Part shown: piece by piece, positions 15,960 through 34,427 of the stretch
Layout of the letters: the number at the start of each line of letters is the position of its first letter
Position numbering within the stretch: position 1 is the stretch's first letter
Origin: Oscillospiraceae bacterium
GTDB lineage: Bacteria > Bacillota > Clostridia > UMGS1810
Length of the DNA: 34,684 bases
Direction: 5' to 3'
NCBI GenBank assembly: GCA_022769845.1
Contig: JALEIO010000182.1
Coordinates: forward strand, 1-34,684
Translations under genes and position numbers: made by a program
Notes under the pieces: model-generated
Seen by the model: the letters and a program-made list of their open reading frames with translations, nothing else
What the model was told of the DNA's origin: nothing
Databases searched by the model: none

Positions 15960-16529
15960 ATGTGGAATTATGACAGACGTCTTATGTACCCGGTAAAAAT
16001 TAAGAACAAAAACCCGGAATTAGCAAAATTTGTAATCGCACAGTACGGTGGTCCCGACGGCGAATTAGGTGCATCGCTTCGCTACCTTTCGCAAAGATAC
16101 ACAATGCCTACCGCCGAAACAAAGGGTATTTTGAATGATATAGGTACGGAAGAACTTGCACACCTTGAAATGGTAGGTGCCATTGTATATCAGCTGACGA
16201 GAGATTTAGACTCGAAAATTGTTAAAGAATCCGGCTTTGGCGATTACTTTATAAATCATACAACGGGAGTGTACCCTGCAAACAGCAACGGTTCGCCGTT
16301 TACTGCCGCATACATTGCCGTTACAGGTGACCCTATCGCTGACCTTAACGAAGATTTGGCAGCAGAACAAAAGGCACGAGCGACATATGACAACATTCTT
16401 CGCCTATCTGATGACCCCGACGTTAATGATGCAATAAGATTTCTTCGTGAACGAGAGGTTGTGCATTATCAGAGATTCGGTGAAGCAAACCATACTAATT
16501 TAAGGAGATTTTGCCCATATAAAAGGTAG
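15960..16529 (+). CDS. cotJC: CotJC, manganese catalase-like spore coat protein
   Basis: AQYGGPDGELGASLRYLSQRYTMP, DIGTEELAHLEMVGAIVYQL, AAEQKARATYDNILRLSDDPDVNDAIRFLREREVVHYQRFGEA. Confidence 0.95.
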   Translation: MWNYDRRLMYPVKIKNKNPELAKFVIAQYGGPDGELGASLRYLSQRYTMPTAETKGILNDIGTEELAHLEMVGAIVYQLTRDLDSKIVKESGFGDYFINHTTGVYPANSNGSPFTAAYIAVTGDPIADLNEDLAAEQKARATYDNILRLSDDPDVNDAIRFLREREVVHYQRFGEANHTNLRRFCPYKR

Positions 16530-18305: not shown

Positions 18306-19637
18306 TTAAATGATTTTAAAGCTTCCAAAATTATCACATTGCAGATTGCTAATCTCAACATTTTTTGAACCGTCCAAGTCTCTTATAAGAACATCACCGT
18401 CAAAGTTATTGATTTTAACATTATCAACAACAACCTTACCGTGTTTTCCCATATGTAAAAACGGAATTTTCTCAAAGCCTTTTCCCAAGGAATAGTTTAT
18501 GTTTTTCATGCAAAGTTCAAGCGGCACAGCGTCATTTCCATATAGAATGCTTGTATTGCTTGCACCTATAAAATCAATATTTTCAAAAGTAATATCTTTT
18601 GGAGGAATTCCCTTTTGCCAAATCTCACTGCCCGATAAGTTTAGATTGAACATTGTTTCTACTCCGCTGACTTTGCAATTTCGCACAACAATATTACCAG
18701 GCTGATGCCTTATATTTCTCGTAGTATCTACAAAATATTTAAAAAACACCGGTGTATTTTTGTGCTCCGATACGCTTTTATATGCACGTTTCTTCTTTTC
18801 CTCCTCCGTAAAGAAGTATCTGAAAGGATACTCGCACGGTCCCTCTGAAATGCATCTGTCCACAAGCACATTGGTACCTCCGATTCTAAACACATTGCGT
18901 GCACTGCTTAAGTAGCAGTCTGTTACGGAAAAATCAGTATTATCAAAGCCGGCTATGCCGTCGTCACCGACTTTGATTACACATTTTTTTACGGTTACAT
19001 CATCGCAGCCGCGAAAATGAATACCGTCATGACCGCCAAGTACGGTAACATTTTCTACGCTGATGTTTTTGCTTGAAAATATACAGTGTGCCCAGTTCCC
19101 GGTATGCTGAATAGTGTAACCTGAAAAATGAAGACTTTCCGACTTATGCACATTTATACCGTGTGGTCCTCTGTAACGCTGCTCACCTTTTTCATCATAA
19201 CAATTTCTGCCGTCTATAACAGAACCTTTTTCGCCTATAACAGAAACATTTTCGGCAAACAAAATCCTTATTATTCCATAATGCCAGCGGCTGCCGGCAC
19301 AGCCTAACAGCTCTTTCCCCTCCTGCTCCGTTCTCTCATAAGGCGATTTCCACAGAATATCTGTCATTTCATCAGCTGGGAGAGGTTCAAACTTATCATT
19401 AAATATGTTTAAATAGTCCTCGGGGTTGATACTGCCGAGCAAATGTGCATTCTCCATAAGGTGTAGTGTAATGTTGCTTCTTAACCTTATATCGCCAATT
19501 ATATACCGGCCTTCGGGAACTATAACCTCACCGCCGCCGCTTTCAAAACAGTAATCTATCGCATCCTGAAACTTTTTTGTTTGAATATCGTCCGTATCGG
19601 GAACTGCACCAAAATCTGATATGTTTACTCTTTTCAT
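18306..19637 (-). CDS. Right-handed parallel beta-helix protein, GH28/pectate-lyase-like, no obvious signal peptide
   Basis: NISDFGAVPDTDDIQTKKFQDAIDYCFESGGGEVIVPEGRYIIGDIRLRSNITLHL; repeated beta-helix rungs. Confidence 0.85.
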   Translation of the reverse strand: MKRVNISDFGAVPDTDDIQTKKFQDAIDYCFESGGGEVIVPEGRYIIGDIRLRSNITLHLMENAHLLGSINPEDYLNIFNDKFEPLPADEMTDILWKSPYERTEQEGKELLGCAGSRWHYGIIRILFAENVSVIGEKGSVIDGRNCYDEKGEQRYRGPHGINVHKSESLHFSGYTIQHTGNWAHCIFSSKNISVENVTVLGGHDGIHFRGCDDVTVKKCVIKVGDDGIAGFDNTDFSVTDCYLSSARNVFRIGGTNVLVDRCISEGPCEYPFRYFFTEEEKKKRAYKSVSEHKNTPVFFKYFVDTTRNIRHQPGNIVVRNCKVSGVETMFNLNLSGSEIWQKGIPPKDITFENIDFIGASNTSILYGNDAVPLELCMKNINYSLGKGFEKIPFLHMGKHGKVVVDNVKINNFDGDVLIRDLDGSKNVEISNLQCDNFGSFKII

Positions 19638-19651
19638 TATCTTTCCTCTTT

Positions 19652-21391
19652 TTAAACTAATTTGCTTACTGTATAATCACCAAAATTATAATCAACTGTA
19701 ATTATTGTACCGTCGGAATATGTAACTCTGTAAACACCGTCTCTCAGTTTTTCATGATTTTCCATAAATTCATACTGTAAATATTTAAGCTTTTCATATT
19801 CTTCTTCCGCAACCTTTATTGCACCAACGCCGATTTTAATGCCTTCGTCGGAATCAGAATACAAATCTTCCTTTCCCATCCAGTCTCTGCCGCAGAATTT
19901 ACTGTTAAAATACATTGTAGGACGGCTGCCGAACTCAATCATTTTTAAATGAGATGCTTTGTCCTTAATCGGATAGTTTATAGTGTCTGATGTTGCATTT
20001 GACATGACTATTCCGTGATACACCAGTGCATAAAATGGAATTAATTCATCAAACAGACCGCACTGTTCGTGATTAACGGCAGATACTGTAGATGTATATA
20101 GAACATAATCAATATCCGAATTTATGAAATCAAACCATGCCTCTGTCTGAAATCCGCCAAACAACTCTTTTGAAAGCTTTGCAATTTTTCTGTAATATTC
20201 AAGCGCCTTCTTTCTTGATACCGGATGCACTTTGTCGCAGCATTTAATGGGTGCACAAGCTGAAATTTCATCAACATAATGCATTCCCTCAAATCCATAA
20301 TCACGTATAACCGGGTACATTTCTACCGCATAATGCTCATACGCCGGTTTTGCGCATACATGCCACGGATCGCCGCCCTGCAGACCGTCCTTTGCATAAT
20401 CGGCTCTTAACCACGGCTTTATTTCACCGTTTTCATCTTTATACATTGAAAGGAGGCTCTTATCCCAGTTTTCGGCAATTTCGTAAGCACCCTTACAGTT
20501 GGAATGGCATACCACAAGGTAGCCGTAGCTTTGCGCCTTTTTAATAAATGCTCTTAAAGCCTCATCTCCACCAAAACGCTCATCGCATGGATAGTGCTGC
20601 GGAAATCTTCCGTCATGTCCGCCGGGTCCCCAGCCTACAAGGCAAATTTCTGCACTTTTAACGCCTTTTTCTTTCATTCTGTCAATAATTTTGTTAAGCG
20701 TGTCAATATCGCAAGCAATGTGCATTGGGGGTTCATTTTCCAAGGTCTGTCTGCGAACGGGAGTCGGTTGAGGTTTCCAGCCCATTCTTATTCTCAATTC
20801 AAGGCACTCTGCAGCAGCCTTTAAATCATCATTTCCTTTGATGCGCTCCTTAAGCGGAACGCAACCCTTTACCTCCATCTGATACTTTCTGTAAAAACGT
20901 GCCATGTCCGAATATGTTGCATAAGGCATTTTAGTATATACAATAAGAAAATCTTCATCAGGGTCATCACCTTCAAGCAAGAATTCCGGTGTGATTGTAT
21001 ATGTACCGGCTTTACACTCAACTATAAAATGCACATCACTGTCCATACTCTGAACATGAACAAAAAGCGAATCCTTATTTTCGCAAATACCGCAGACAGG
21101 CATTGCTGAAACTTCCGAACTGAAACTCGCGTTTTCTCTTTTGGTAAATTCACATTTTACCACACCGTAATCAAAGTTTGTCGGGAAGAACATATATCCG
21201 TCCGCTGTATCGGGAATGGTTGTCAATGAAGATTCAACCCTTAATTTGTCATATTTAAGACCCGTAATTTTATCTTTCGGAATAAAGAGCCTTATTTCAT
21301 TAGCATTTTCCGTTACCTCCGGATTAATAGGTGTTACATTTCCCTCAATGTCTGTGCACAGAACCTTAAAAAATGCTTTACTGCTACTCAT
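19652..21391 (-). CDS. Putative TIM-barrel glycosidase-like protein of uncharacterised family
   Basis: Barrel-like segments VKSAEICLVGWGPGGHDGRFPQHYPCDERFGG, YGYLVVCHSNCKGAY, YGFEGMHYVDEISACAP, FQTEAWFDFINSDIDYVLY; small beta-sandwich-like ends. Confidence 0.6.
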   Translation of the reverse strand: MSSSKAFFKVLCTDIEGNVTPINPEVTENANEIRLFIPKDKITGLKYDKLRVESSLTTIPDTADGYMFFPTNFDYGVVKCEFTKRENASFSSEVSAMPVCGICENKDSLFVHVQSMDSDVHFIVECKAGTYTITPEFLLEGDDPDEDFLIVYTKMPYATYSDMARFYRKYQMEVKGCVPLKERIKGNDDLKAAAECLELRIRMGWKPQPTPVRRQTLENEPPMHIACDIDTLNKIIDRMKEKGVKSAEICLVGWGPGGHDGRFPQHYPCDERFGGDEALRAFIKKAQSYGYLVVCHSNCKGAYEIAENWDKSLLSMYKDENGEIKPWLRADYAKDGLQGGDPWHVCAKPAYEHYAVEMYPVIRDYGFEGMHYVDEISACAPIKCCDKVHPVSRKKALEYYRKIAKLSKELFGGFQTEAWFDFINSDIDYVLYTSTVSAVNHEQCGLFDELIPFYALVYHGIVMSNATSDTINYPIKDKASHLKMIEFGSRPTMYFNSKFCGRDWMGKEDLYSDSDEGIKIGVGAIKVAEEEYEKLKYLQYEFMENHEKLRDGVYRVTYSDGTIITVDYNFGDYTVSKLV

Positions 21392-21425
21392 GTGTTTTCC
21401 TCTTTTCCATATTTTTTGTTTTTAA

Positions 21426-22685
21426 CTATTTGTTAGCATCTTGGAAACCGTCATTCATTAGTTTTTGTTGTAACTCATTTATATTAACATTCTCAACCTC
21501 AACCCCGGATTTGACCGCAATCGCAACAGCCGTTCCCAACGCTTGGCCTAAAATCGAACATGTCGCCATAACTCTTGACGAACTCAGTGCAGCGTGTGTA
21601 ACACTTATGTTTCTACCTGCAAATACAAGATTTTTTATATTCTTTGAAATCATACATCTGAGCGGCAACCCCCACGGTTGCGGTGCAGGATGAAATATCG
21701 TTGGGTATCCATCTTTGTAATAAAACCCCTCAGGAAAATGATCATCCATAGACCATCCGGCATAAGCAACAATATCATCAAAACGACCTTCGTTTTCGAC
21801 ATCATTTTGAGTGACTATGTGTTTGCCTACATATCGACGACTTTCCCTTTTTCCCGGCAAAAATCCAATCCATTCAAGTTCCCAATTATCAGCACCATGA
21901 TCTCCGTAATTCTTCATATGATCCCATACACCATAACAAATTTTTAGAAGTTCATCTCTGCATTTATCCGTGTCATGTATACAATCCCATTCTCCGCCAA
22001 GTTCTATCCACCAGAAATTATTATCTATTTCATGATCCTTATACGGCAGATCATCATCCGATTTAAATTTGTAAGCCCATTCTGGCGGAACAAAATCAAC
22101 CTTATGAGTGGTTTCTCTTACCTGAAATAAGCAACTCATACCCATTGTTTTTTTGTCGGACTTATCAGGTGGTATAGTCTCTCCAAAATCCTGTTTTGCT
22201 TCTCTACCGTACATATATTCAGCACCAGATAATGGTGCAAGAATAGAATCTCCCGAACAGTCGGCAAAATATTTTGATTCTATTACATGAAAAGTTTCTG
22301 CATTTGATTGCCATGCTTTTATACTTTTTATCATATTATTATCCATTTCAGCATCCATACAACTTGCATTTAGAATCAATGTAAGATTATCTTCCGCCTT
22401 CGCCTTTTCGTATAACACACTACTCCAAATCGGAAATTTCAACCCTTTGTTCTGATAAAAATTTTCTAGTATTATTTCTTCAATTATTCCTGTTTCTCGA
22501 TTATCCTTACCATGAGCACCGCAAACCCACATTCTTATTTCTTCTGATGAGTTTCCACCCAGTACATGTCTGTCCTGAACTAGAACAGTTTTAATCCCAT
22601 TACGAGAAGCAGCAATTGCACAACATAGTCCAGATAACCCTCCGCCTATCACGCACAAATCAGTTTTATAGAGTATTGTTTTCAT
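21426..22685 (-). CDS. FAD-dependent oxidoreductase (FAD_oxidored type); start at MKTILYKTD
   Basis: DLCVIGGGLSGLCCAIAASRNGIKTVLVQD (GxGxxG), C-terminal LVFAGRNISVTHAALSSSRVMATC; GGAGGAG before ATG 22685. Confidence 0.9.
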   Translation of the reverse strand: MKTILYKTDLCVIGGGLSGLCCAIAASRNGIKTVLVQDRHVLGGNSSEEIRMWVCGAHGKDNRETGIIEEIILENFYQNKGLKFPIWSSVLYEKAKAEDNLTLILNASCMDAEMDNNMIKSIKAWQSNAETFHVIESKYFADCSGDSILAPLSGAEYMYGREAKQDFGETIPPDKSDKKTMGMSCLFQVRETTHKVDFVPPEWAYKFKSDDDLPYKDHEIDNNFWWIELGGEWDCIHDTDKCRDELLKICYGVWDHMKNYGDHGADNWELEWIGFLPGKRESRRYVGKHIVTQNDVENEGRFDDIVAYAGWSMDDHFPEGFYYKDGYPTIFHPAPQPWGLPLRCMISKNIKNLVFAGRNISVTHAALSSSRVMATCSILGQALGTAVAIAVKSGVEVENVNINELQQKLMNDGFQDANK

Positions 22686-23736
22686 TTTGTTCTCCTCCAA
22701 TGTATTCCGCTATTGTTCGTGCATAGCACCTTCCAAGTTCTATCAGTCTTTCAGGAGAAATCTTATTCTCTTCTGTTCCAAAATATGTGTTTTCAAAAGA
22801 ATGTGCAATTTCACATTCCGGACGATGATTCATAGTGAAACCAAAGCTAGAACTAGGTTGATTCCACCCTGTCATAGGCGGATAGTCGTTTTCTGATGCA
22901 TATTTCATTGATTTAGGAGTAATTTGTTTTTCTAAAATTTTAGAAAATCGTTCTACTCTATCCTGTTTTTCTATACTATTTCTCACAATAAAAATATTGT
23001 CATTTTCACCACCTTTATGCCATGGTGAGTGAAAATCAAATCCATAATGACATCCAACCTCATTTACATACGCTTTAATAGCTGCTGTTTCAGGATATAT
23101 CGATTTATCAGGCGAATAATCCCTATTATGGTCATGTGGTTTTCTTGCTTTACCTTGATCGCCATCCACAACTCCGTCATAATCAACAAACGGCACACAA
23201 AACACCCTCGTATCGCAAATAGGATTTCGAGAAAACTCTCTTAATACACCCTCCAAAACATATGAACCAGTTGATTCGCACGCATGATGTCTTGCTGTCA
23301 TAATTATATTTTTATTACCATTTCCTATAACACATGCCGGCACCGACCTTCCCTTACGGCTTTTACAAAGCTCAATTATATCAAGTGATACTTCTTTAGC
23401 TAATTCAAAGAATCGTTCTGGATGATACAGCATGTTGTGAGCAAAATATACCTTATTTTCATTTTGTGCAAATTTATACCTAAATGAATCACCATCAACA
23501 CTATCAAGCCAGTGCCATGTTTTCAGATCATAACTCACAGCAGGCCCCCAATATCCTAGTCGATTCGGTTGCATATGAAACCATACTTCCTTATTTTCAG
23601 CCCCCTCTACGCAAAAAGCCCAGTAAAACCAATCTTCGCTAGAATCTCTGATTTCGTTTTCAAGATATACATCCGTTTCAGAGATACTCAAAATCTTAAT
23701 ATTTCCCCCAACAAAATTACAATGAATATTCATCAT
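22666..23736 (-). CDS. M14 family zinc carboxypeptidase-like protein with N-terminal beta domain
   Basis: N-terminal WFYWAFCVEGAENKEVWFHM..., then NIIMTARHHACESTGSYVLEG (HxxE), FDFHSPWHKG; 20-nt overlap with the downstream FAD gene. Confidence 0.82.
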   Translation of the reverse strand: MMNIHCNFVGGNIKILSISETDVYLENEIRDSSEDWFYWAFCVEGAENKEVWFHMQPNRLGYWGPAVSYDLKTWHWLDSVDGDSFRYKFAQNENKVYFAHNMLYHPERFFELAKEVSLDIIELCKSRKGRSVPACVIGNGNKNIIMTARHHACESTGSYVLEGVLREFSRNPICDTRVFCVPFVDYDGVVDGDQGKARKPHDHNRDYSPDKSIYPETAAIKAYVNEVGCHYGFDFHSPWHKGGENDNIFIVRNSIEKQDRVERFSKILEKQITPKSMKYASENDYPPMTGWNQPSSSFGFTMNHRPECEIAHSFENTYFGTEENKISPERLIELGRCYARTIAEYIGGEQNENNTL

Positions 23737-24850
23737 ATTTCATACCTTTCTTGTACTTCTTTATATCTTTCTTCACCAACAAAAAGATTTGCATATCGAA
23801 GAATATCTAACCTCAAATGACTTTCTGGCTTTATGCTATATACATCTGCAGCATTAACGACTACAGGCATACCTCTTTCATCAGTCATCGTGGTATATAT
23901 ACTAAAGCTTTGTTTACTTGTAACTCTACCCTGTTCATCTTTGATCAACGAAAGGTGAAAAACAACATCATATAACGGTTTATCAAAGTAACAATCTTCT
24001 CCAACTATACGATTATCATAAAAGAAATTCCCTAAGCAATAAATCTTTGTATAATCATCGCTTATATCACTTTTTTGAATTATATGCTGGTGATGTCCAA
24101 CAATTATATCTGCACCAAATTCTTTTATTTTTTCTGCAATATAAATACTATACGGATCGACCGGTTCAACATATTGTCCCCCATTATGTGCGATAACGAT
24201 AACATAATCAGCACTTTCCTTTGCATTCTTTATATCCTTTTCAAGTTGTTCAAGGTATGGTTTCACCAAATCATATTCTTCTGACTTATCATAGTAAATC
24301 CGTTTTAAATCGTCAGCTATCTGCTTATAATCATTAAGAAGATGAATGGAGCCAAGCTTGGTTTCCTCTGGTTGAAAAAGATTCACCATATATGGATGTT
24401 CTAAAAATCTATGATGAGAAAAAGCATTTGTTCCATATGTGTAATTTATAAATGCAATCTTTATACCATTTAGCTCTTTTATGAAGGCTTTATTTCTATC
24501 TTTTTCGGTTTTATAAATACCAATTGTATCAAACCCATACCTTTTACAATTGTCAACTGTGTTGAGAATTCCTTGCTCCCCTCTATCCATACAATGATTA
24601 TTAGCTAGCGTTAGCATATTAAATCCACTTTTTTGAGAGCATCAAGCAAACCTTCAGGCGTATTAAAACAGTATCTTTCATTGGTATACCCAAGTTCCTC
24701 ACCTGCAATTGGGGTTTCGAGATTTCCTACTAAATAATCACAATTTGAAAGTTTGTTGGCCTTGCTGAAGCAAAAAGAATAATCCCCATTTGCGATCTTA
24801 TTTATTCTTTCGCTTGGGAGAATATCACCCGTAAAACTTATATTAACCAT
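23733..24850 (-). pseudogene. CapA family (poly-gamma-glutamate synthesis/metallophosphatase-like) protein, frameshifted into two ORFs
   Basis: N-part MVNISFTGDILPSERI...NLETPI (24611-24850) and C-part MLTLANNHCMDRGEQGILNT...VIAHNGGQYVEPVDPYSIYIAEKIKEFGADIIVGHHQH (23733-24617), in different frames joined at an AAAAAA run. Confidence 0.85.
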
Positions 24851-26124
24851 CAGTTTAATCCTCCTATCACTTCTTGTATATCTTTAGCATCTATTTCTCT
24901 AACTTTTTTATGATTCTTTATTGAAAGTGCAGCAGCAACCCCTGTAGCTTCCCCCATCCCCATACATATAGGCATTGCTCTATAATTAGAATGCGCCATA
25001 TGAGTTCCGGATATATTTCTTCCCGCCAAAAGAATACCATCTATCTTCTTTGGGACAAAACAGCCATACGGGATTGTATACCCCTTTGTCTGCACAAATT
25101 CATGCTGACAACCAGTTTCATCTAAACCCGAACCAGTAATGTTATGAACATCAAAGTTAAAGTATGCATCGTACACCACATAATCATCATGTTGCACCGC
25201 CTGTGCTATATCATCCTCGGTGATTTTCTTCATTCCTTCGAAATGACGTGTTTCACGGATTCCTATCAAAGAGGCACTTCCCACAACATAACAATTCTCA
25301 TAGCCTGGAGCATATTCTCGCAGAAAGTTAACTATTGCAGGGATTTGCTTACGGCATGAAACTTCTGCTTTTGTAAGACTTTCAGCATTTGTACCGTCAA
25401 TTTCTGTTATATTCGTCATATTACAAGTTACTATTCCTGGAATTGTTGACCAATATAATAAAACATGTCCAGCCGGATACGGCAGCTTTTCTCTTGCCAA
25501 AGATTGAAGTTCACCCTTCTCTGTATGCACAAGAGTTTCAAATGAAGTTGCAAAAACTGCCCTTTCCATATCCACTCCCCCAACTTTAAACATAAGCGTT
25601 GCAGGTTGCATTTTCCCATCGGACTCTCTCCCTAACACATATGGAATACCACATTTATATGCAACATCCCCATCGCCTGTTGCATCTATTACTACTTTTG
25701 AATACAAGGCAGTAAATCCGTCCTTATTATAGCATACAATTCCCTTTAATACATCATTCTCCATCAAAACATCACAAACGGTTGTATATAGTAAAATATC
25801 AACTCCCGCCTCTTCAAGCATCTCTATGTATGTGAGAGTAAGCATTTCAGGATCAATAAATTCTGTCTTTTTCCCTGGTTCAAAATAATTTTTTTGAGAA
25901 GCTCTTTCCAAAACCTCATGATAAAACTTATTACCAACATTACCCGTAAAATGGCTCATCATTCCGGATGTTGAGATACCTCCCAAACGCCCAAGACTTT
26001 CTACTATCAATGTTTTTACACCTTGTCTTGCTGCCATTATTGCTGCCGCCATTCCAGCAGGACCAGAACCAGCAACTATTACATCATATTCTCTTATTTT
26101 TGAAATCTTTGTACAAAACTCCAT
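24850..26124 (-). CDS. FAD-dependent oxidoreductase (FAD_oxidored type)
   Basis: YDVIVAGSGPAGMAAAIMAARQGVKTLIVESLGRLGG; C-terminal LLAGRNISGTHMAHSNYRAMPICMGMGEATGVAAAL; AAAGGAGGTG before ATG. Confidence 0.92.
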   Translation of the reverse strand: MEFCTKISKIREYDVIVAGSGPAGMAAAIMAARQGVKTLIVESLGRLGGISTSGMMSHFTGNVGNKFYHEVLERASQKNYFEPGKKTEFIDPEMLTLTYIEMLEEAGVDILLYTTVCDVLMENDVLKGIVCYNKDGFTALYSKVVIDATGDGDVAYKCGIPYVLGRESDGKMQPATLMFKVGGVDMERAVFATSFETLVHTEKGELQSLAREKLPYPAGHVLLYWSTIPGIVTCNMTNITEIDGTNAESLTKAEVSCRKQIPAIVNFLREYAPGYENCYVVGSASLIGIRETRHFEGMKKITEDDIAQAVQHDDYVVYDAYFNFDVHNITGSGLDETGCQHEFVQTKGYTIPYGCFVPKKIDGILLAGRNISGTHMAHSNYRAMPICMGMGEATGVAAALSIKNHKKVREIDAKDIQEVIGGLN

Positions 26125-26125
26125 A

Positions 26126-26154
26126 TTGACACCTCCTTTATTATATATTATAAT
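26126..26154 (+). promoter_or_regulatory. Candidate sigma-A promoter TTGACA-17 bp-TATAAT for the PocR/AraC regulator
   Basis: Direct read; perfect consensus hexamers with 17-bp spacing. Confidence 0.7.
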
Positions 26155-26216
26155 AACACTATAATATATAAAATTCCTTTGTATATTTGCAAATATTCTA
26201 TAAAAAGGTGCATTTT

Positions 26217-27065
26217 ATGAACAACAGTATACTCGAAATCAAAAATTACATACTTTTTTTAAAAAAAGATTGCAACTTAGAAATTACACTCCATCCATAT
26301 GAAAATGAACATCTCATTTCTAATAGTGAGCTAATTTCCTTCAATATTCATGAAAATCCCTATTGTATATACGTTAAAACATTTGCCGAAGCACAGGAAC
26401 ATTGTGTTGCTCGCCAAAAAAAAGTTCTACATAAAAGTGCATCAGGTTCCTTCTGCGGATCCTGTTATGCAGGAGTAAAAGAATTCATTTATCCAATCTA
26501 CGACAATACATCATTAGTGGGATTTATTTCAATAAGCGGATATAGAGAACAAAACTACGAATCATACATAAACAAGTGTTCGAATAAATTTAACATATCA
26601 CAAAAGAATTTAGAAAAAACAATTCTATCCCTGAAAAGCAAAATCCCAAATAAATCTTATGTTGACACTCTTATTATTCCACTAATTCGAATGTTAGAAC
26701 TTGCCTACATCAAACTTGGCAACATAAGTAATGATTCCAGTACTATAGAAGAAATCAAAAAGTATGTGAATCGTCATTATGCTGAGGATATAACAATAGA
26801 ACAACTATGCAAAATTTTTTCATGTAGTCGATCGTATATTTGCCACACCTTTAAAGTCAAAACAGGACATACATTTCACGAGCATCTAACAGCAATAAGG
26901 CTTCGTTCTGCAAAATCATTACTTCTTCATTCTAATTTAAGCGTGTCCGAAATAGCTTATTCTGTTGGATTTAATGATTCAAATTATTTTTCAAGTACAT
27001 TTAAATCACATGTGGGGTTATCCCCTATGGCATACCGAAAAAAACAAATGATTGTTTCGCAGTGA
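26217..27065 (+). CDS. AraC family transcriptional regulator with N-terminal PocR-type sensory domain
   Basis: PocR-like CARQKKVLHKSASGSFCGSCYAGVKEFIYPIYDNTSLVGFISISGYRE; C-terminal double HTH ITIEQLCKIFSCSRSYICHTFKVKTGHTFHEHLTAIRL...VSEIAYSVGFNDSNYFSSTFKSHVGLSPMAYRK. Confidence 0.93.
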   Translation: MNNSILEIKNYILFLKKDCNLEITLHPYENEHLISNSELISFNIHENPYCIYVKTFAEAQEHCVARQKKVLHKSASGSFCGSCYAGVKEFIYPIYDNTSLVGFISISGYREQNYESYINKCSNKFNISQKNLEKTILSLKSKIPNKSYVDTLIIPLIRMLELAYIKLGNISNDSSTIEEIKKYVNRHYAEDITIEQLCKIFSCSRSYICHTFKVKTGHTFHEHLTAIRLRSAKSLLLHSNLSVSEIAYSVGFNDSNYFSSTFKSHVGLSPMAYRKKQMIVSQ

Positions 27066-27786: not shown

Positions 27787-28016
27787 CAAATGCATGGCTG
27801 GCAGGCCAAGAAAAAGACGCACTTGTGCGTAGCCAGTGGAGATTAGGGCTTTGCCCGAAACTGAAATACCCCCCCGTTTTACGGGGGAATTTTTATTGTG
27901 CCGTTAGGGTATAGTCTAATGGCACAGTTGAAAAGTGTCCCGTTTAAGTTTTTATTTGATTTATGGAACGGTTCAAAATAAAAACACACCCTATTGGGAA
28001 AGGAGTGAAATCAAAA

Positions 28017-28562
28017 ATGAAAATAGGATATATCAGATGCAGTTCTGAACAACAAAACACGGCAAGACAAGAAGTGCTGATGCAGGAGCTTGGAGTTGAT
28101 GAAGTTTTTATAGATAAATTGTCGGGCAAAAACACAGACAGACCACAACTGAAAAAGATGTTATCTTATGTCCGTAAGGGTGATACTGTTATCGTATCTG
28201 AAATCAGTAGGTTTGCAAGAAATACAAAAGACCTGTTAGAGTTGATTGAAATTCTTGCTCAAAAAGAGGTTGAGTTTATTAGCCAAAAAGAAGCAATTGA
28301 CACATCAACTCCTACCGGGAAATTTATGCTCACAGTTTTCGGCGCGGTAAGCGAATTGGAGCGGTCATATATTTTGTCACGGCAAGCTGAAGGTATTACC
28401 ATTGCAAAATCTCTCGGAAAATACACCGGCAGGAAGCCCAAAGAACTTCCTGCCGGTGCAGACTCTGTTATCGATAAATGGAAAGATGGGAAGATAACCG
28501 CCGCCGAAGCAATCCGAAAGCTCGGCATCAGCAAAAGCACATTTTACAGAAAATTTGGATAA
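28017..28562 (+). CDS. Small serine recombinase (resolvase/invertase family)
   Basis: MKIGYIRCSSEQQNTARQEVLMQELGVDEVFIDKLSGKNTDRPQLKKMLSYVRKGDTVIVSEISRFARNTKDL...C-terminal HTH ITAAEAIRKLGISKSTFYRK; AAAGGAG upstream. Confidence 0.95.
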   Translation: MKIGYIRCSSEQQNTARQEVLMQELGVDEVFIDKLSGKNTDRPQLKKMLSYVRKGDTVIVSEISRFARNTKDLLELIEILAQKEVEFISQKEAIDTSTPTGKFMLTVFGAVSELERSYILSRQAEGITIAKSLGKYTGRKPKELPAGADSVIDKWKDGKITAAEAIRKLGISKSTFYRKFG

Positions 28563-28655
28563 TTGATGACGGGTTGACAGGTTTTTGCAAGATTTTAGAA
28601 CTATAATAGCTATATAATTTTTCGTAGTTTTGCAATAACCCTGCAACCCGACACC

Positions 28656-29948
28656 TTATATGGTAGGTTTTATCCAACTTACCACTTTGGCATAATCAAC
28701 ATTGTTTGTTTCTAAATTTTCAAATACAGGAATTGTTTCAGCTATTGTTGCAGTATATCCGCCTCTATCAATCCAATCTATGATTTTACATACTATGCTT
28801 GTTTTTAAATCTATGTCATCCTTTTTAAAATAATATGTTTCAAAAGATTTTGCAGAATGTGTAATGGTGAAATCGAGTATTTCGTAATCCTTTGGGGTGA
28901 GATTACTTATTATGCAATTAGGATTGTTATATACAGAACTCAAATTCAATGATGTATCAGTTTCTTTTTGAAGTCCGGTGTTATTGTCCAAAATCATTTT
29001 ACTTATATGTTGTTTAGTGATTATTCCGTCTATCGCGTATGGCATAAAATCAACATTATCCTTTAAAATGTCTAGGTCATATAGACAGGAATTTTTGTTT
29101 ATATGATACATATTTAATAGCATTATAAACGGGTGTGAAGTATCATTTAGAAGTTGATGACATTCCCGGTACGCATCAATCAAAGCATTTCTGCTATTAT
29201 CTGCTCTTTTCCCCGAATAGAAGGCAGTTAATTTTAAGATAGATGTTAGCAATTTGTTTTCGATTTTTCTGCCTTTATATAAATGATTATAATATCTTGC
29301 AAAGAAAATAATACTTGTTTTGAATTTTTCAACAAGTTCGGTTCGAGTTTCTTTTTCTGCCTTAAATTCAAGGTCAAGATTTGCCAATATGTTATCGACG
29401 CTGTCAGATGGAATTAAATTTGCCTTGTAGCTTTTCATTGCTTCAATGTGTCTCATTGAGCAGTTTTCTGTTGCTATCAGCAGTGCATCATAAACTATGG
29501 TTAAACACATAAATTCAATTTGTCTGTAAATCTGCTTGAAATTTTCTTCTATGTAAGAACTTTTAAATTTTATTTCTTTCCCTTTTTCTTTTTCGATTAT
29601 ATCAAAATCAAAAATTCTTGGGTAAAACATTTTGTATAGATACAATTTCATAATATCCGGGAACAAAAGCCTATAAGCCATAAACTGCCTTGCATCATCC
29701 TTTAGATGTATTATGCTGTTGGTAGTTTCTGCGAAATCCAAGAATAGAAACAATAGCTCGGATTTTGACATATTGCTCAAATTCAATTTATTATTGTTTT
29801 CAAAGTCAGAAATCAAGCGCAAAAATTTTTTTCGTGCTTGTGCATCATCTATGCTCAAAGGATTACGGGTTATGGTTAAATTTTTATTGCTGTCTCTAAA
29901 ATATTGCGAAAAGAATTTTTTTTGTGTGCTTCTCTTTTTGAGTTTCAT
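28656..29948 (-). CDS. Hypothetical protein (430 aa), no family recognised
   Basis: Long uninterrupted ORF inside the putative mobile element, opposite orientation to its neighbours. Confidence 0.75.
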   Translation of the reverse strand: MKLKKRSTQKKFFSQYFRDSNKNLTITRNPLSIDDAQARKKFLRLISDFENNNKLNLSNMSKSELLFLFLDFAETTNSIIHLKDDARQFMAYRLLFPDIMKLYLYKMFYPRIFDFDIIEKEKGKEIKFKSSYIEENFKQIYRQIEFMCLTIVYDALLIATENCSMRHIEAMKSYKANLIPSDSVDNILANLDLEFKAEKETRTELVEKFKTSIIFFARYYNHLYKGRKIENKLLTSILKLTAFYSGKRADNSRNALIDAYRECHQLLNDTSHPFIMLLNMYHINKNSCLYDLDILKDNVDFMPYAIDGIITKQHISKMILDNNTGLQKETDTSLNLSSVYNNPNCIISNLTPKDYEILDFTITHSAKSFETYYFKKDDIDLKTSIVCKIIDWIDRGGYTATIAETIPVFENLETNNVDYAKVVSWIKPTI

Positions 29949-30305
29949 AATGAAGCACTCTATCGGACATAAATTTAGTATTGTTTATACATTTGTTGGT
30001 TGTATCTGTGTAAGCGGATTTTGAGCTTGTTCTGGTTTTTCCTTTTCCCATATAAATCCTAGCTCCTTAAAAAAGTCAATTTTTTTCATTTTAATTTCCC
30101 ACCAAATCAAAACGACAAATAAGGCTTCCAATGATAAAATGTTATTGTAGTTGACAAAAGCATAAGCGTGTGAATGCCAAAATAACACATATGTTATTAA
30201 GGCTTGTATATGCAATTATTATATATTATATCACAATATATTGCTATTTTCAATATATGAGCGGTTTCTGTTGACTGCACAAAATATTTTATATTAGAGG
30301 AGGAC

Positions 30306-31850
30306 ATGCAAATGTCAAACAACGAATTGAAAAAAATATTTTCTGATGCAACCTTAAAGGTTAAGGAAATTCAGGAAACACCAGTGAGAAACTTTAGTAA
30401 AAACGAAAGCAAAAACTTAGTTCACGGCAGTAATGTAACTGCTTATCTGAACGAGCTTTCACCGACGTTTATCCAGAGGCTGAAAGAGAGAAAAAAGTCC
30501 ATAAAATCAAAGGTGTTGTTTTACTCAACAGATGATGCCGGAAACATAGATTGTTTCTTGGATATGTTTGGTGATTATGTCATATACAACAGCGATAAGG
30601 GTAAATATTATTACTGGACAGGTAGGCTATGGCGGGAGGACATTGACAATAAGATTCAGCTTTGGGTTCAGACTTCTATGAGAACACGCAGAGATTATAC
30701 ACTAAAGCAGTTAAAAAAGAACTCTGGTGTGAAAAATTATGATGAACTACTTTCTCATGTTAATAGGTGTTGCAATCAGCACAGTATCAAGGCTGTTATT
30801 GAAGGTGCAAAAGCTACGTTATCTTTTAACGATGTTATTTTCGATAAGCATCCGCATCTCTTAAATGTGCTGAATGGAACGATAAACCTAAAAGATGGGG
30901 TTATCAGACCTCACGACAGAAGGAATTTCATAACGAAGCTCATACCAATTATGTATGATGCTTCTAACAAATCACCTCAATTCAAGAGTTTTTTGAAGGA
31001 TACTTTTGAAGATGATGAGCTGATAAAATATGTTCAGAGGTTGCTCGGTTACTGTGTTACAGGAGAAACAAAGGAGCAGGTCGTTCACTTCTTTATTGGA
31101 AATGGCGCAAACGGAAAGAGTACACTGCTTTCGCTCGTGCAATACATTATGTGCGACTATTCCGCTGTGATACCATCAAAGGTACTTATCAGTGTTGAAC
31201 GAGCGGGAGCAGCTTCATCCGAAATTGCACAACTTCCACACAAGCGCCTTGTTTGTTGCAGTGAGTTAAACTGCACCGATGTGTTAAACGAAGGAAAGAT
31301 AAAAATTATGTCGAGCGGTGAAACACTTGCAGCAAGGCAGCTTTATTCACAAGCCTTCACCTTTGAACCTGAGTTCAAGTGTATTGTTGATACAAACTAT
31401 CTTCCGCAAATTATGGGTACTGATAATGGCATCTGGAGAAGGGTAAGGGTTGTTCCTTTTGAATATACAGTTTCAAAGGACAAGCTCAATAAAAACTTGT
31501 TAAATGAGCTTAAACAAGCGAAAAAAGCTGTTCTCGCTTGGCTTGTAAAGGGAGCTATTAAATACTATGAAGAAGGCTTGGGGACATGTGAAGCGGTAAT
31601 AAAGGCTACGAAAAAGTATCGCAAATCCCAAGACACATTGGGAGGCTTTATAGATGCCTGCATCAAGTATGAAGATGGTTCAGAAGTCAGAGCCAGGGCG
31701 TTATATGAGGCTTATATAAGCTACTGCAACGATAACTTTTTAAATCCTATGAGCGAAACAAAGTTCGGAAAGGATTTTGCTGCTCTTGGGTTTAAAAGGG
31801 GAAAAGATAAAGTGTCACGAAAGTATCTTGGCATCAAATTAAAAATTTAA
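30306..31850 (+). CDS. Phage/plasmid primase-helicase, P4 family (D5 N-terminal plus SF3 helicase-like)
   Basis: LNVLNGTINLKDGVIRPHDRRNFITKLIPIMYD...; Walker A FIGNGANGKSTLLSLVQYIMCDY; IVDTNYLPQIMGTDNGIWRRVRVVPFEYT. Confidence 0.93.
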   Translation: MQMSNNELKKIFSDATLKVKEIQETPVRNFSKNESKNLVHGSNVTAYLNELSPTFIQRLKERKKSIKSKVLFYSTDDAGNIDCFLDMFGDYVIYNSDKGKYYYWTGRLWREDIDNKIQLWVQTSMRTRRDYTLKQLKKNSGVKNYDELLSHVNRCCNQHSIKAVIEGAKATLSFNDVIFDKHPHLLNVLNGTINLKDGVIRPHDRRNFITKLIPIMYDASNKSPQFKSFLKDTFEDDELIKYVQRLLGYCVTGETKEQVVHFFIGNGANGKSTLLSLVQYIMCDYSAVIPSKVLISVERAGAASSEIAQLPHKRLVCCSELNCTDVLNEGKIKIMSSGETLAARQLYSQAFTFEPEFKCIVDTNYLPQIMGTDNGIWRRVRVVPFEYTVSKDKLNKNLLNELKQAKKAVLAWLVKGAIKYYEEGLGTCEAVIKATKKYRKSQDTLGGFIDACIKYEDGSEVRARALYEAYISYCNDNFLNPMSETKFGKDFAALGFKRGKDKVSRKYLGIKLKI

Positions 31851-31907
31851 ACCTTTTGCTGTGGCAGCTGTTATCTGCTGTCGCCCGCAAACAAGGAGGG
31901 ATGTGAT

Positions 31908-32588
31908 ATGAAGAAGAAACAGTTAATGCTGCACAGGACACATAGCGGGAATTACCGTTCTGTTATAAAGACAAAGCACGGCAGACTTATTTATTTAGAA
32001 GTATTCAAGGACAATAACAGCGTGTATGTTAAAAAGTGTTATTATCTTGACCGTGTGAGATGCGGAGAGTATTATGCTTCTCCACAGAGGCTTGTAACAA
32101 AAAAATTCAGTTATATAAAAATGCTTGATGTTATAGCTTCCGAACTCGACCGACAGTATTTCGGTATAGAGATTATTGATAAATTCACAGACTTAAAAAC
32201 GGATGAATTTATCACAGCACAACTTAAAGCTATGCAGAGAAAATATAATTTTCTCATATTTATCGGAGATGGCGAGTTTATAGACGGCATACCATCAGTT
32301 ATTAAAAGTCGGTTTAAAAACCGAATCCACAGAAGTATTTATTTAGAGATGAATTACAATGGTAACGGAAAAGGTGTAATATCCGATTGCCATTACTATG
32401 ATAGAAAATACAAAGAGCGGAGTGTGGTTATTCCTGAAACGCTCTCAACCGTATTTTTTGATTATAACAGACAGGCCATACTGAATATAATCAATAATGA
32501 GCTGAATACGGCATTTACAAATGTTATATTCGTTACTGACGGCAGTCTTGATATTGATAAGAAAGTCGCTCTATGCGGCAATATATAA
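31908..32588 (+). CDS. Hypothetical protein (226 aa) with apparent internal duplication
   Basis: AAGGAGG before the start region; same strand as primase and recombinase. Confidence 0.75.
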   Translation: MKKKQLMLHRTHSGNYRSVIKTKHGRLIYLEVFKDNNSVYVKKCYYLDRVRCGEYYASPQRLVTKKFSYIKMLDVIASELDRQYFGIEIIDKFTDLKTDEFITAQLKAMQRKYNFLIFIGDGEFIDGIPSVIKSRFKNRIHRSIYLEMNYNGNGKGVISDCHYYDRKYKERSVVIPETLSTVFFDYNRQAILNIINNELNTAFTNVIFVTDGSLDIDKKVALCGNI

Positions 32589-32674
32589 GCGGAACTTCGT
32601 GTGTCCGCAACAAATAATATAGCTTCACTCGTGAGCATATTATTAGACTAAACAAAAAATCGGAGGTCGATATT

Positions 32675-32848
32675 ATGCTGCAAAACATTGAAACCATCAG
32701 CACAGGATACCATACAAACTATACAGATATATCGAATAACATAAAAGAAGTTAAGCATAGCGTTGTTTTTAACGCTGAACAGAGAAAGGAACTTGAAGAA
32801 CAAATCGTAGAGGAACTCTACAGGATTTTCACGCATAAGGCAGGCTGA
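32675..32848 (+). CDS. Small hypothetical protein (57 aa), absent from the ORF track
   Basis: MLQNIETISTGYHTNYTDISNNIKEVKHSVVFNAEQRKELEEQIVEELYRIFTHKAG; CGGAGGTCG upstream of ATG; 50 nt before the recombinase gene. Confidence 0.7.
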   Translation: MLQNIETISTGYHTNYTDISNNIKEVKHSVVFNAEQRKELEEQIVEELYRIFTHKAG

Positions 32849-32900
32849 TTAAGGGAGCGGAGCGGAAACATCCGCTCCGCTTATAGAAAGGGGTGTAGTT

Positions 32901-34427
32901 ATGGCTATTGCCCTTTATGCACGAAAGTCAATCGAGCGGGAAAATTCAATCTCCTGCGAAACTCAGCTTGAATACTGTAAAGCAATGATAAAGCCTGATG
33001 AACGAGATGAAAAAATACTTACATTTGTTGACAATGGCTTTTCAGGCGGTAATACAGACCGTGATGGTTTTCAAAGTATGATGCGAAAAATCGAGCAAGG
33101 AAAGATTACCAAAGTGCTCACCTACAGATTGGACCGTATATCCAGAAGCTTATCGGACTTTGTAAACATACTTGCTGTTTTCAAAAAATATGGAGTTGAG
33201 TTTGTTTCTACACAAGAGGCATTTGACACAGGAAGTCCCTATGGCGAGCTTATCGTCAAGATTTTAGCGGTTTTTGCAGAGTTTGAAAGGCAGTCAATAA
33301 TACAGCGTGTTACACAGGCTTACGAACACAGGAGCGAAATGGGCTTCTATATGGGTGGCAGAAAACCCTATGGCTTTGACCTTGAGCCTACGGTTATAAA
33401 TAATATTAAAACGAAGCGTCTGAAACCTATTCCTGACGAAATCAAGCAAGTCAAATACATATATGATACTTATGCAGTTGAGCAAGTATCTTTAGGTAGG
33501 CTCTTAAAGAACCTTGTAGAGAATGACATCAAAACCTTATCAGGTGGCGGATGGACTACAGCCAAGCTCTCAACAATCATTAAGAACCCTATTTATGTAA
33601 GAGCTGATAACCGAGTTTATGAATATTTCCAAATGCACAATGCACAAATTATAAGTCCCCCATCTGCTTTTAATGGTATTAACGGCATACAGATTTATGG
33701 CAAAACAAAGCACGAAGCAGACAATAGTGATTGGTCAGACATCAAGGTAGTGGTAATGACACACGAGGGAGTTATAGACAGCGACACTTGGCTTAAATGT
33801 CAGCAGAAGCTATCGAAAAACAAGCAGATACGAAACGCAGTTTCAAATAAGACGAGCTGGCTCGGTGGTAAAATCATCTGTGGCAGATGTGGCAGAACTA
33901 TGACCACTATCAAGGGTAAGACAGGAAGCGGAGAAATCCGCAGGTATTTTACTTGCACAGGCAAAACTCATTTCAAAGACTGCAAAGGAACTAAAGGCAC
34001 AATTTATGCAGAGAGCCTTGAAGATATGGTCTATACCGAAATTGCCAAAAAGCTTGAAACTTTGAAGAACATCAGGACAAGCGAGAGAAAGAATGTGCAT
34101 CCTGAAATCAACAAACTGCGAAACAAGGTAAAATCCATTGAGTTATCTCAAAATAAAATCGCAGATATGCTGCTTGAGCCGGAAGCAAATGCTGATTTGC
34201 TTGAAATAATGAGTCAAAGAGCGACAAAACTTAAAGCAGAGAGAACGGAGCTTATGTTAAAGATTGAAGAACTTGAAAACACAGAAATTGATGTTAAACA
34301 AGCTATCAATCTCTCAAAAAAATGGAAAACCGCTTTCTTTGAGGAAAAGCGTGGTGTATGCGGTATCATTATAAACCGCATCATTATAGACGAGGATGGA
34401 AATGCTGAAATCGTCTGGAACATATAA
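32901..34427 (+). CDS. Large serine recombinase / site-specific integrase
   Basis: MAIALYARKSIERENSISCETQLEYCK (catalytic Ser region), YRLDRISRSLSDF, recombinase domain, zinc ribbon ICGRCGRTM...CTGKTHFKDCKG, coiled-coil tail. Confidence 0.96.
   Translation: MAIALYARKSIERENSISCETQLEYCKAMIKPDERDEKILTFVDNGFSGGNTDRDGFQSMMRKIEQGKITKVLTYRLDRISRSLSDFVNILAVFKKYGVEFVSTQEAFDTGSPYGELIVKILAVFAEFERQSIIQRVTQAYEHRSEMGFYMGGRKPYGFDLEPTVINNIKTKRLKPIPDEIKQVKYIYDTYAVEQVSLGRLLKNLVENDIKTLSGGGWTTAKLSTIIKNPIYVRADNRVYEYFQMHNAQIISPPSAFNGINGIQIYGKTKHEADNSDWSDIKVVVMTHEGVIDSDTWLKCQQKLSKNKQIRNAVSNKTSWLGGKIICGRCGRTMTTIKGKTGSGEIRRYFTCTGKTHFKDCKGTKGTIYAESLEDMVYTEIAKKLETLKNIRTSERKNVHPEINKLRNKVKSIELSQNKIADMLLEPEANADLLEIMSQRATKLKAERTELMLKIEELENTEIDVKQAINLSKKWKTAFFEEKRGVCGIIINRIIIDEDGNAEIVWNI

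Follow-up and report, generated by a model that had tools for sequence, protein, structure and literature searches.

Catabolic operons controlled by a PocR/AraC regulator include pocR/pdu of Salmonella, in which the regulator gene lies divergent from the catabolic genes. In gut and soil bacteria, redox enzymes act on glycoconjugates during oxidative glycoside cleavage, as described in three reports (PMC10628242, PMC11239390, PMC10646112). In MslH, of the PGA_cap family, residues D11, E44, and N87/H88/D91 are held by GD, NLE, and NNHxMD motifs (PMC10406935). Here, we analyzed a 34,684-nt stretch of DNA from an Oscillospiraceae bacterium (GCA_022769845.1, JALEIO010000182.1), hereafter the window, which is one contig (C56) within a 244-contig genome of 2.06 Mb. 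The genome is a metagenome-assembled genome (MAG) that is 93% complete. Positions 18306-27065 of the window contain a PocR-AraC regulator gene divergent from six minus-strand genes. We found that the regulator and the core genes FAD1, CapA, M14, and FAD2 recur together in relatives, and we propose, with about even confidence, that in gut Clostridia they form an intracellular catabolic cassette for an imported glycoconjugate, one that is induced by its substrate and can be transferred horizontally.

All six minus-strand genes, like the PocR-AraC gene divergent from them, are found at the positions given in the initial annotation. Outward from the regulator, the order is FAD1, CapA, M14, FAD2, DUF5696, and a GH28-like beta-helix gene. 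The GH28-like and DUF5696 genes are separated by 14 nt and DUF5696 and FAD2 by 34 nt, and the remaining junctions overlap or nearly do so. Gaps of 0-35 nt, as initially described, hold when CapA is counted as a single gene but not otherwise, the CapA open reading frame (ORF) being split. A hydropathy scan of the cassette proteins revealed no evident signal peptide or membrane helix, in line with the initial annotation, which saw no evident signal peptide, and Rfam and tRNA scans gave no match. A literature search on DUF5696, FAD_oxidored, PF12831, and the PGA_cap/M14/FAD combination returned nothing on function, which is consistent with the description of the locus as an undescribed one.

The conservation of the cassette was surveyed by scanning 84,980 species genomes with an M14 alignment as the query. 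The scan yielded at least 77 M14 loci, mostly in gut or faecal Clostridia assemblies; this count is a lower bound because the scan rests on two short peptide patterns. The conserved module is a PocR-AraC gene divergent from FAD1-(CapA)-M14-FAD2. It is complete and in the same order in loci L035 and L041 and partial in about 20 others (including L031, L032, L037, L038, L043, L044, L053, L063, and L064), appearing as FAD1-CapA-M14-FAD2 in L037, FAD1-M14-FAD2 in L043 and L044, and AraC-FAD1-CapA-M14 in L032. FAD genes occupied 31 of 244 positions (12.7%) within two genes of M14, always on the same strand as M14 (31/31), versus 3 of 355 positions (0.8%) at a distance of five or more genes (p = 3.8e-10). 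The corresponding counts for CapA were 10/244 and 0/355 (p = 1.1e-4); both p-values serve as a guide only, the loci being related. Among the six families that the initial annotation had grouped together, FAD1, CapA, M14, and FAD2 are linked, with PocR, far beyond this genome, whereas DUF5696 and GH28 are not. On the M14 tree, FAD1 linkage was scattered and required at least 14 parsimony changes over 63 rows, indicating that the module is not one inherited block.

The regulator gene lies on the plus strand at 26217..27065, counted from its first ATG at 26217; a TTG start at 26187 had been given earlier. Its product contains a PocR domain (PF10114, 27.6 bits; cut-off 23.9) and an AraC helix-turn-helix (HTH) domain (PF12833, HTH_18, 81.5 bits), and of ten regulators occupying the equivalent place in relatives, seven have a PocR domain that scores over the Pfam cut-off. 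The divergent intergenic region (26125..26216) carries a TGCAC half-site and a TTTTTGTGCTATnATTATA-like element ahead of FAD1. A comparison of the window with six other cassette loci showed that the half-site and the TTTTTGTGCTATnATTATA element before FAD1 are common to several loci, the window copy of the element being diverged. A perfect TTGACA-17-TATAAT site at 26126-26154 was given little weight, as it overlaps the FAD1 ribosome-binding region and promoter-like sites were not above shuffles. Two further divergent PocR-AraC/FAD_oxidored pairs, with FAD1 paralogues 33-34% identical, are present in the same genome at contigs C101 and C71; therefore, the combination of an FAD enzyme with a PocR regulator is a repeated two-gene theme in this genome. 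The C71 regulator (L028, G000:C71:6047-6907), divergent from its FAD_oxidored paralogue, is interrupted by an in-frame stop.

FAD1 (24850..26124, minus strand) is a 424-aa FAD_oxidored flavoprotein (PF12831, 1.6e-107, 360.8 bits), and FAD2 (21426..22685, minus strand) matches the same family (2.5e-84, 284.4 bits), confirming the presence of two FAD_oxidored paralogues. Both have a full-length PF12831 match and a GxGxxG dinucleotide motif. Neither has a Gfo/Idh or GMC Pfam domain, their matches being to PF12831 and generic Rossmann/FAD families only. FAD1 orthologues adjoining M14 at 20 loci elsewhere were 57-78% identical, and the predicted FAD1 model adopts a flavoprotein fold (pLDDT 81). FAD2 is C-terminally truncated: the window copy has 424 aa versus 560-606 aa in nine full-length or near-full-length orthologues. 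Its orthologues are up to 79% identical and carry an extra, mostly beta C-terminal domain of ~140 residues, and the cut point lies 34 nt from the DUF5696 start. In a search without a positive control, this domain was not found elsewhere in the 93% complete assembly of the genome, which argues against a simple two-contig chimera. The predicted FAD2 model was poor (pLDDT 70). At L018:4890-7700, upstream of a GH88 and an M14 gene, we observed a protein of 936 aa that contains more than one FAD_oxidored stretch and may have arisen by fusion of two flavoprotein modules.

M14 (22666..23736, minus strand) is a zinc hydrolase with a cytosolic-carboxypeptidase-type N-terminal domain (PF18027, 6.1e-5), and its nearest solved structures are 4b6z and 3k2k. 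PF18027 scored just over its cut-off, and PF00246 scored under its own. The zinc ligands H151, E154, and H236, together with N204 and R205, were invariant in 9/9 aligned sequences, and the catalytic glutamate, in a (T/S)(L/F/I)E motif before YFG, was present in every sequence reaching that far. The N204-R205 pair is conserved, but a GKxR loop with invariant K196 and R198 takes the place of the arginine found at R127 in carboxypeptidase, which hints at a different leaving group. Related M14 domains are fused behind Golvesin_C domains in proteins of 1214-1392 aa at L025:8784-12962 and L026:6370-10014.

CapA was recognized by its PF09587 (PGA_cap) match (1.4e-41, 143 bits), as the initial annotation had stated; however, the gene is not intact, and the called ORF (23733..24617, minus strand) is its C-terminal part only. 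An N-terminal fragment (MVNISFTGD...NLETP...) lies in another frame at 24611..24852 on the minus strand and matches the N-terminus of the orthologues in L032, L035, L037, and L041, whose reading frames are uninterrupted. Comparison with these orthologues showed that CapA is split by a one-base frameshift, with the break at or near an A6 tract (24629..24634, minus strand), its likely place. CapA keeps the GD, NLE, and NNHxMD motifs, of which GD and NLE sit in the N-terminal fragment, and its nearest solved structure is MslH (8gq9). Membership in the MslH epimerase subgroup was evaluated by the NCBIfam score and residues D11, E44, N87, H88, D91, H259, H261, and H295. The C-terminal part of CapA scored 33 of 700 bits on the curated NCBIfam model, and H261, the second metal-side histidine of MslH, is glycine in most cassette CapA proteins. 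This replacement indicates that the cassette CapA is an ordinary PGA_cap protein outside the MslH subgroup, and MslH-type chemistry should not be assumed.

Since MslH is the only solved relative of CapA and the motifs are kept, and since M14 is related to cytosolic carboxypeptidases, the genes might serve the tailoring or degradation of a peptide, such as a ribosomally synthesized and post-translationally modified peptide (RiPP), with an MslH-like CapA, M14 trimming the C-terminal residue, and the FAD enzymes oxidizing side chains. However, no precursor, leader-peptidase, or cyclase genes were seen in the neighbourhoods of the relatives, where sugar importers, glycosidases, and aldolases occur instead, and the loss of H261 also speaks against this explanation, which we consider improbable. 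Family resemblance (PGA_cap and the M14 cytosolic carboxypeptidase N-domain) would likewise fit turnover of poly-gamma-glutamate or polyglutamyl chains, in which CapA and a deglutamylase-like M14 recycle polyglutamate and the amino acid so freed passes to the FAD enzymes. CapA, however, is absent from most M14/FAD loci, no CapB- or CapC-type synthase was among the families tallied around M14, the proteins look cytosolic, and glycan neighbours are commoner; we therefore regard polyglutamate turnover as very improbable.

The DUF5696 gene (19652..21391, minus strand; PF18952, 139 bits) and the GH28-like beta-helix gene (18306..19637, minus strand; PF00295, 39.9 bits; nearest solved structure 5olp) lie outside the conserved cassette. 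The DUF5696 profile aligned with the GH129 enzyme 5wzn at positions 142-560 (419 positions, 5.8e-31). D374 and E417 of the window protein, invariant in 11 homologues, align with D435 and E478, the nucleophile and acid/base of NagBb (5wzn). On the basis of this alignment, DUF5696 is predicted to be a GH129-like TIM-barrel glycosidase with both catalytic residues kept. Inspection of the GH28-like protein by eye for polygalacturonase motifs showed GDDG, and NTD, GHG, and RIK were not seen at the expected places; its best score against curated models was far under the cut-off (80 of 800 bits).

The initial annotation had treated all six genes as one pathway with an operon-wide oxidise-then-cleave scheme, and the tight same-strand packing in the window is in keeping with it. 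However, neither DUF5696 nor GH28 was found beside M14 in any of the other M14 loci, and DUF5696 relatives elsewhere usually adjoin an AraC gene of their own. Third-position GC (GC3) also differs, being 0.22-0.29 in the core genes and 0.36-0.37 in DUF5696 and GH28; it is 0.38-0.46 in rpoB, cysS, RNase Y, and an M16 peptidase gene. Because of these neighbourhoods and the differing GC3, cleavage by the beta-helix protein after oxidation is without comparative support, and with FAD2 cut off at the junction, a single six-gene pathway appears quite improbable. The junction of the DUF5696/GH28 pair with the cut FAD2 looks like a later local rearrangement, by which the cassette would have been joined to an unrelated GH129-like and GH28-like pair.

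A close FAD1 was found in none of 15 other genomes of the order, and M14 relatives from within the bacterial family share only ~43% identity. Together with the low GC3 of the core and the recombinase genes nearby, these results make acquisition of the core cassette by horizontal transfer the simplest reading. The right side of the core faces mobile-element genes (27963-34427): a resolvase (27963-28562), a 430-aa protein without a Pfam match (28656-29948, minus strand), a D5-type primase/helicase, and, where the contig ends, a large serine recombinase (32901-34427). In a sister genome (G052:C36:148239-164248; L170, L171), cotJC is split by an insert of ~15.5 kb, one end of which carries a large serine recombinase; the arrangement resembles a skin-type element, which would need to be excised when the cell sporulates. 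The cotJC gene of the window (15960-16529) is unbroken.

The window copy of the cassette is probably impaired because of the CapA frameshift and the FAD2 truncation. These lesions and the adjacent recombinase genes could mean that it is a decaying remnant that no longer functions and has persisted next to a mobile element by chance. We hold this to be unlikely, though far from negligible: no damage was seen in FAD1, M14, or the regulator, CapA and FAD2 have no further stops, and dN is low (0.16-0.37) against a mostly saturated dS. The frameshift, moreover, could be a consensus error of the MAG. L041 is the better copy to study.

The neighbours of the M14 loci bear on the substrate. ABC permease and substrate-binding protein (SBP) genes lie between FAD1 and M14 in L076, an SBP-like gene is present in L080, and importer permease genes lie upstream of M14 in L105. 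The earlier statement that no transporter is encoded thus holds for the window but not for these relatives, which supports an imported solute and weakens the need for a very small one. An HpcH/HpaI aldolase was found in L059, its homologue in L105, and a DHDPS-family protein in L044. A subfamily of short (661-666 aa) glycyl radical enzymes with an RxGG[FY]SEYF loop, scoring far under every curated family cut-off, is encoded near M14 genes (L042:11109-13956, L044:12808-15640, L079:11085-13070, and L056:5150-7876). In L042, L044, and L079, where the enzyme is found with M14, the loop reads RIGGFSEYF. An activase is encoded next to the enzyme in L042, L044, and L056; in L079, none was identified. 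Other neighbours include GH88, GH10, GH78, GH36, GH94, GH130, PL8, glucuronoyl-esterase-like, and DUF4838 proteins; the tally, made from mechanical alignments of unrelated proteins, counts families only. The importers, aldolases, glycyl radical enzymes, and glycosidases favour an imported, sugar-containing, possibly uronate-type substrate.

In the mechanism we propose, an ABC importer, beside the cassette in some relatives and elsewhere in others, would bring the glycoconjugate in, and PocR-AraC would sense it or an early intermediate and fire the divergent promoter. Hydrolysis of an amide or ester adjoining a carboxylate would fall to M14, and FAD1 and FAD2 would oxidise or reduce the released sugar-acid part. 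CapA would add another metal-dependent reaction, either hydrolysis of a phosphoester or ester or an epimerisation, and in relatives, glycyl radical enzymes and 2-keto-3-deoxy-acid-type aldolases may carry the product to central metabolism.

Several observations weigh against this proposal. FAD genes are lacking from roughly two thirds of the M14 loci placed on the tree, so M14 functions in other contexts as well. Glycosidases flanking the cassette differ greatly from locus to locus and are interspersed with spore and housekeeping genes, which leaves the uronate theme suggestive only. In L035, L041, and L043, the operon consists of the cassette and includes no aldolase, glycosidase, or transporter; hence, the cassette alone may suffice for a short conversion. 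In Foldseek searches, the models of FAD1 and FAD2 matched nothing more specific than generic flavoproteins, at high root-mean-square deviation, practically no chemistry has been described for PF12831 in the literature searched, and the CapA frameshift may be an assembly error of the contig.

A bolder version of the catabolic-cassette proposal, which we offer as speculative and rather unlikely, is that Clostridia in the herbivore gut use a new anaerobic route to degrade sugar acids capped by an amino acid or acyl group, such as uronamides, with M14 as a glycoconjugate amidase, PF12831 enzymes for the redox steps, and the short, undescribed glycyl radical enzyme of L042, L044, and L079 as a dehydratase downstream. 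Being compact, recurrent, and equipped with a dedicated PocR regulator, the cassette offers a direct route to the substrate via inducer screens. The substrate would jointly assign PF12831, a large flavoprotein family with almost no described chemistry in the literature search, the sugar-linked M14 clade, and the cytosolic CapA clade, and DUF5696 gains a concrete prediction as a GH129-like glycosidase.

Compared with pocR/pdu of Salmonella, the cassette shares a PocR sensory domain with an AraC HTH and a regulator gene divergent from putative catabolic genes; however, it has no diol dehydratase or microcompartment genes, its enzymes are FAD, M14, and CapA proteins, and its PocR domain scores weakly (27.6 bits). 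It would resemble the DgpA/Gfo-Idh and GMC glycoside 3-oxidase pathways in a redox enzyme acting on glycoconjugates, whereas the cassette FAD enzymes belong to PF12831 and have no known lyase partner. The DUF5696 protein resembles the GH129 alpha-N-acetylgalactosaminidase NagBb over the 419 aligned positions, with conserved nucleophile and acid/base positions, but is remote in sequence and lacks a signal peptide. Like the MslH/PGA_cap family, the cassette CapA is calcineurin-like and carries the GD, NLE, and NNHxMD motifs; unlike MslH, it has the second metal-side histidine replaced, is soluble, and stands in a sugar-gene context. With cytosolic-carboxypeptidase-type M14 proteins (4b6z, 3k2k, and 4a37), the cassette M14 shares the N-terminal beta domain, the HxxE...H zinc ligands, and the NR pair for carboxylate binding, and it differs from them by a GKxR loop in place of the R127-type arginine.

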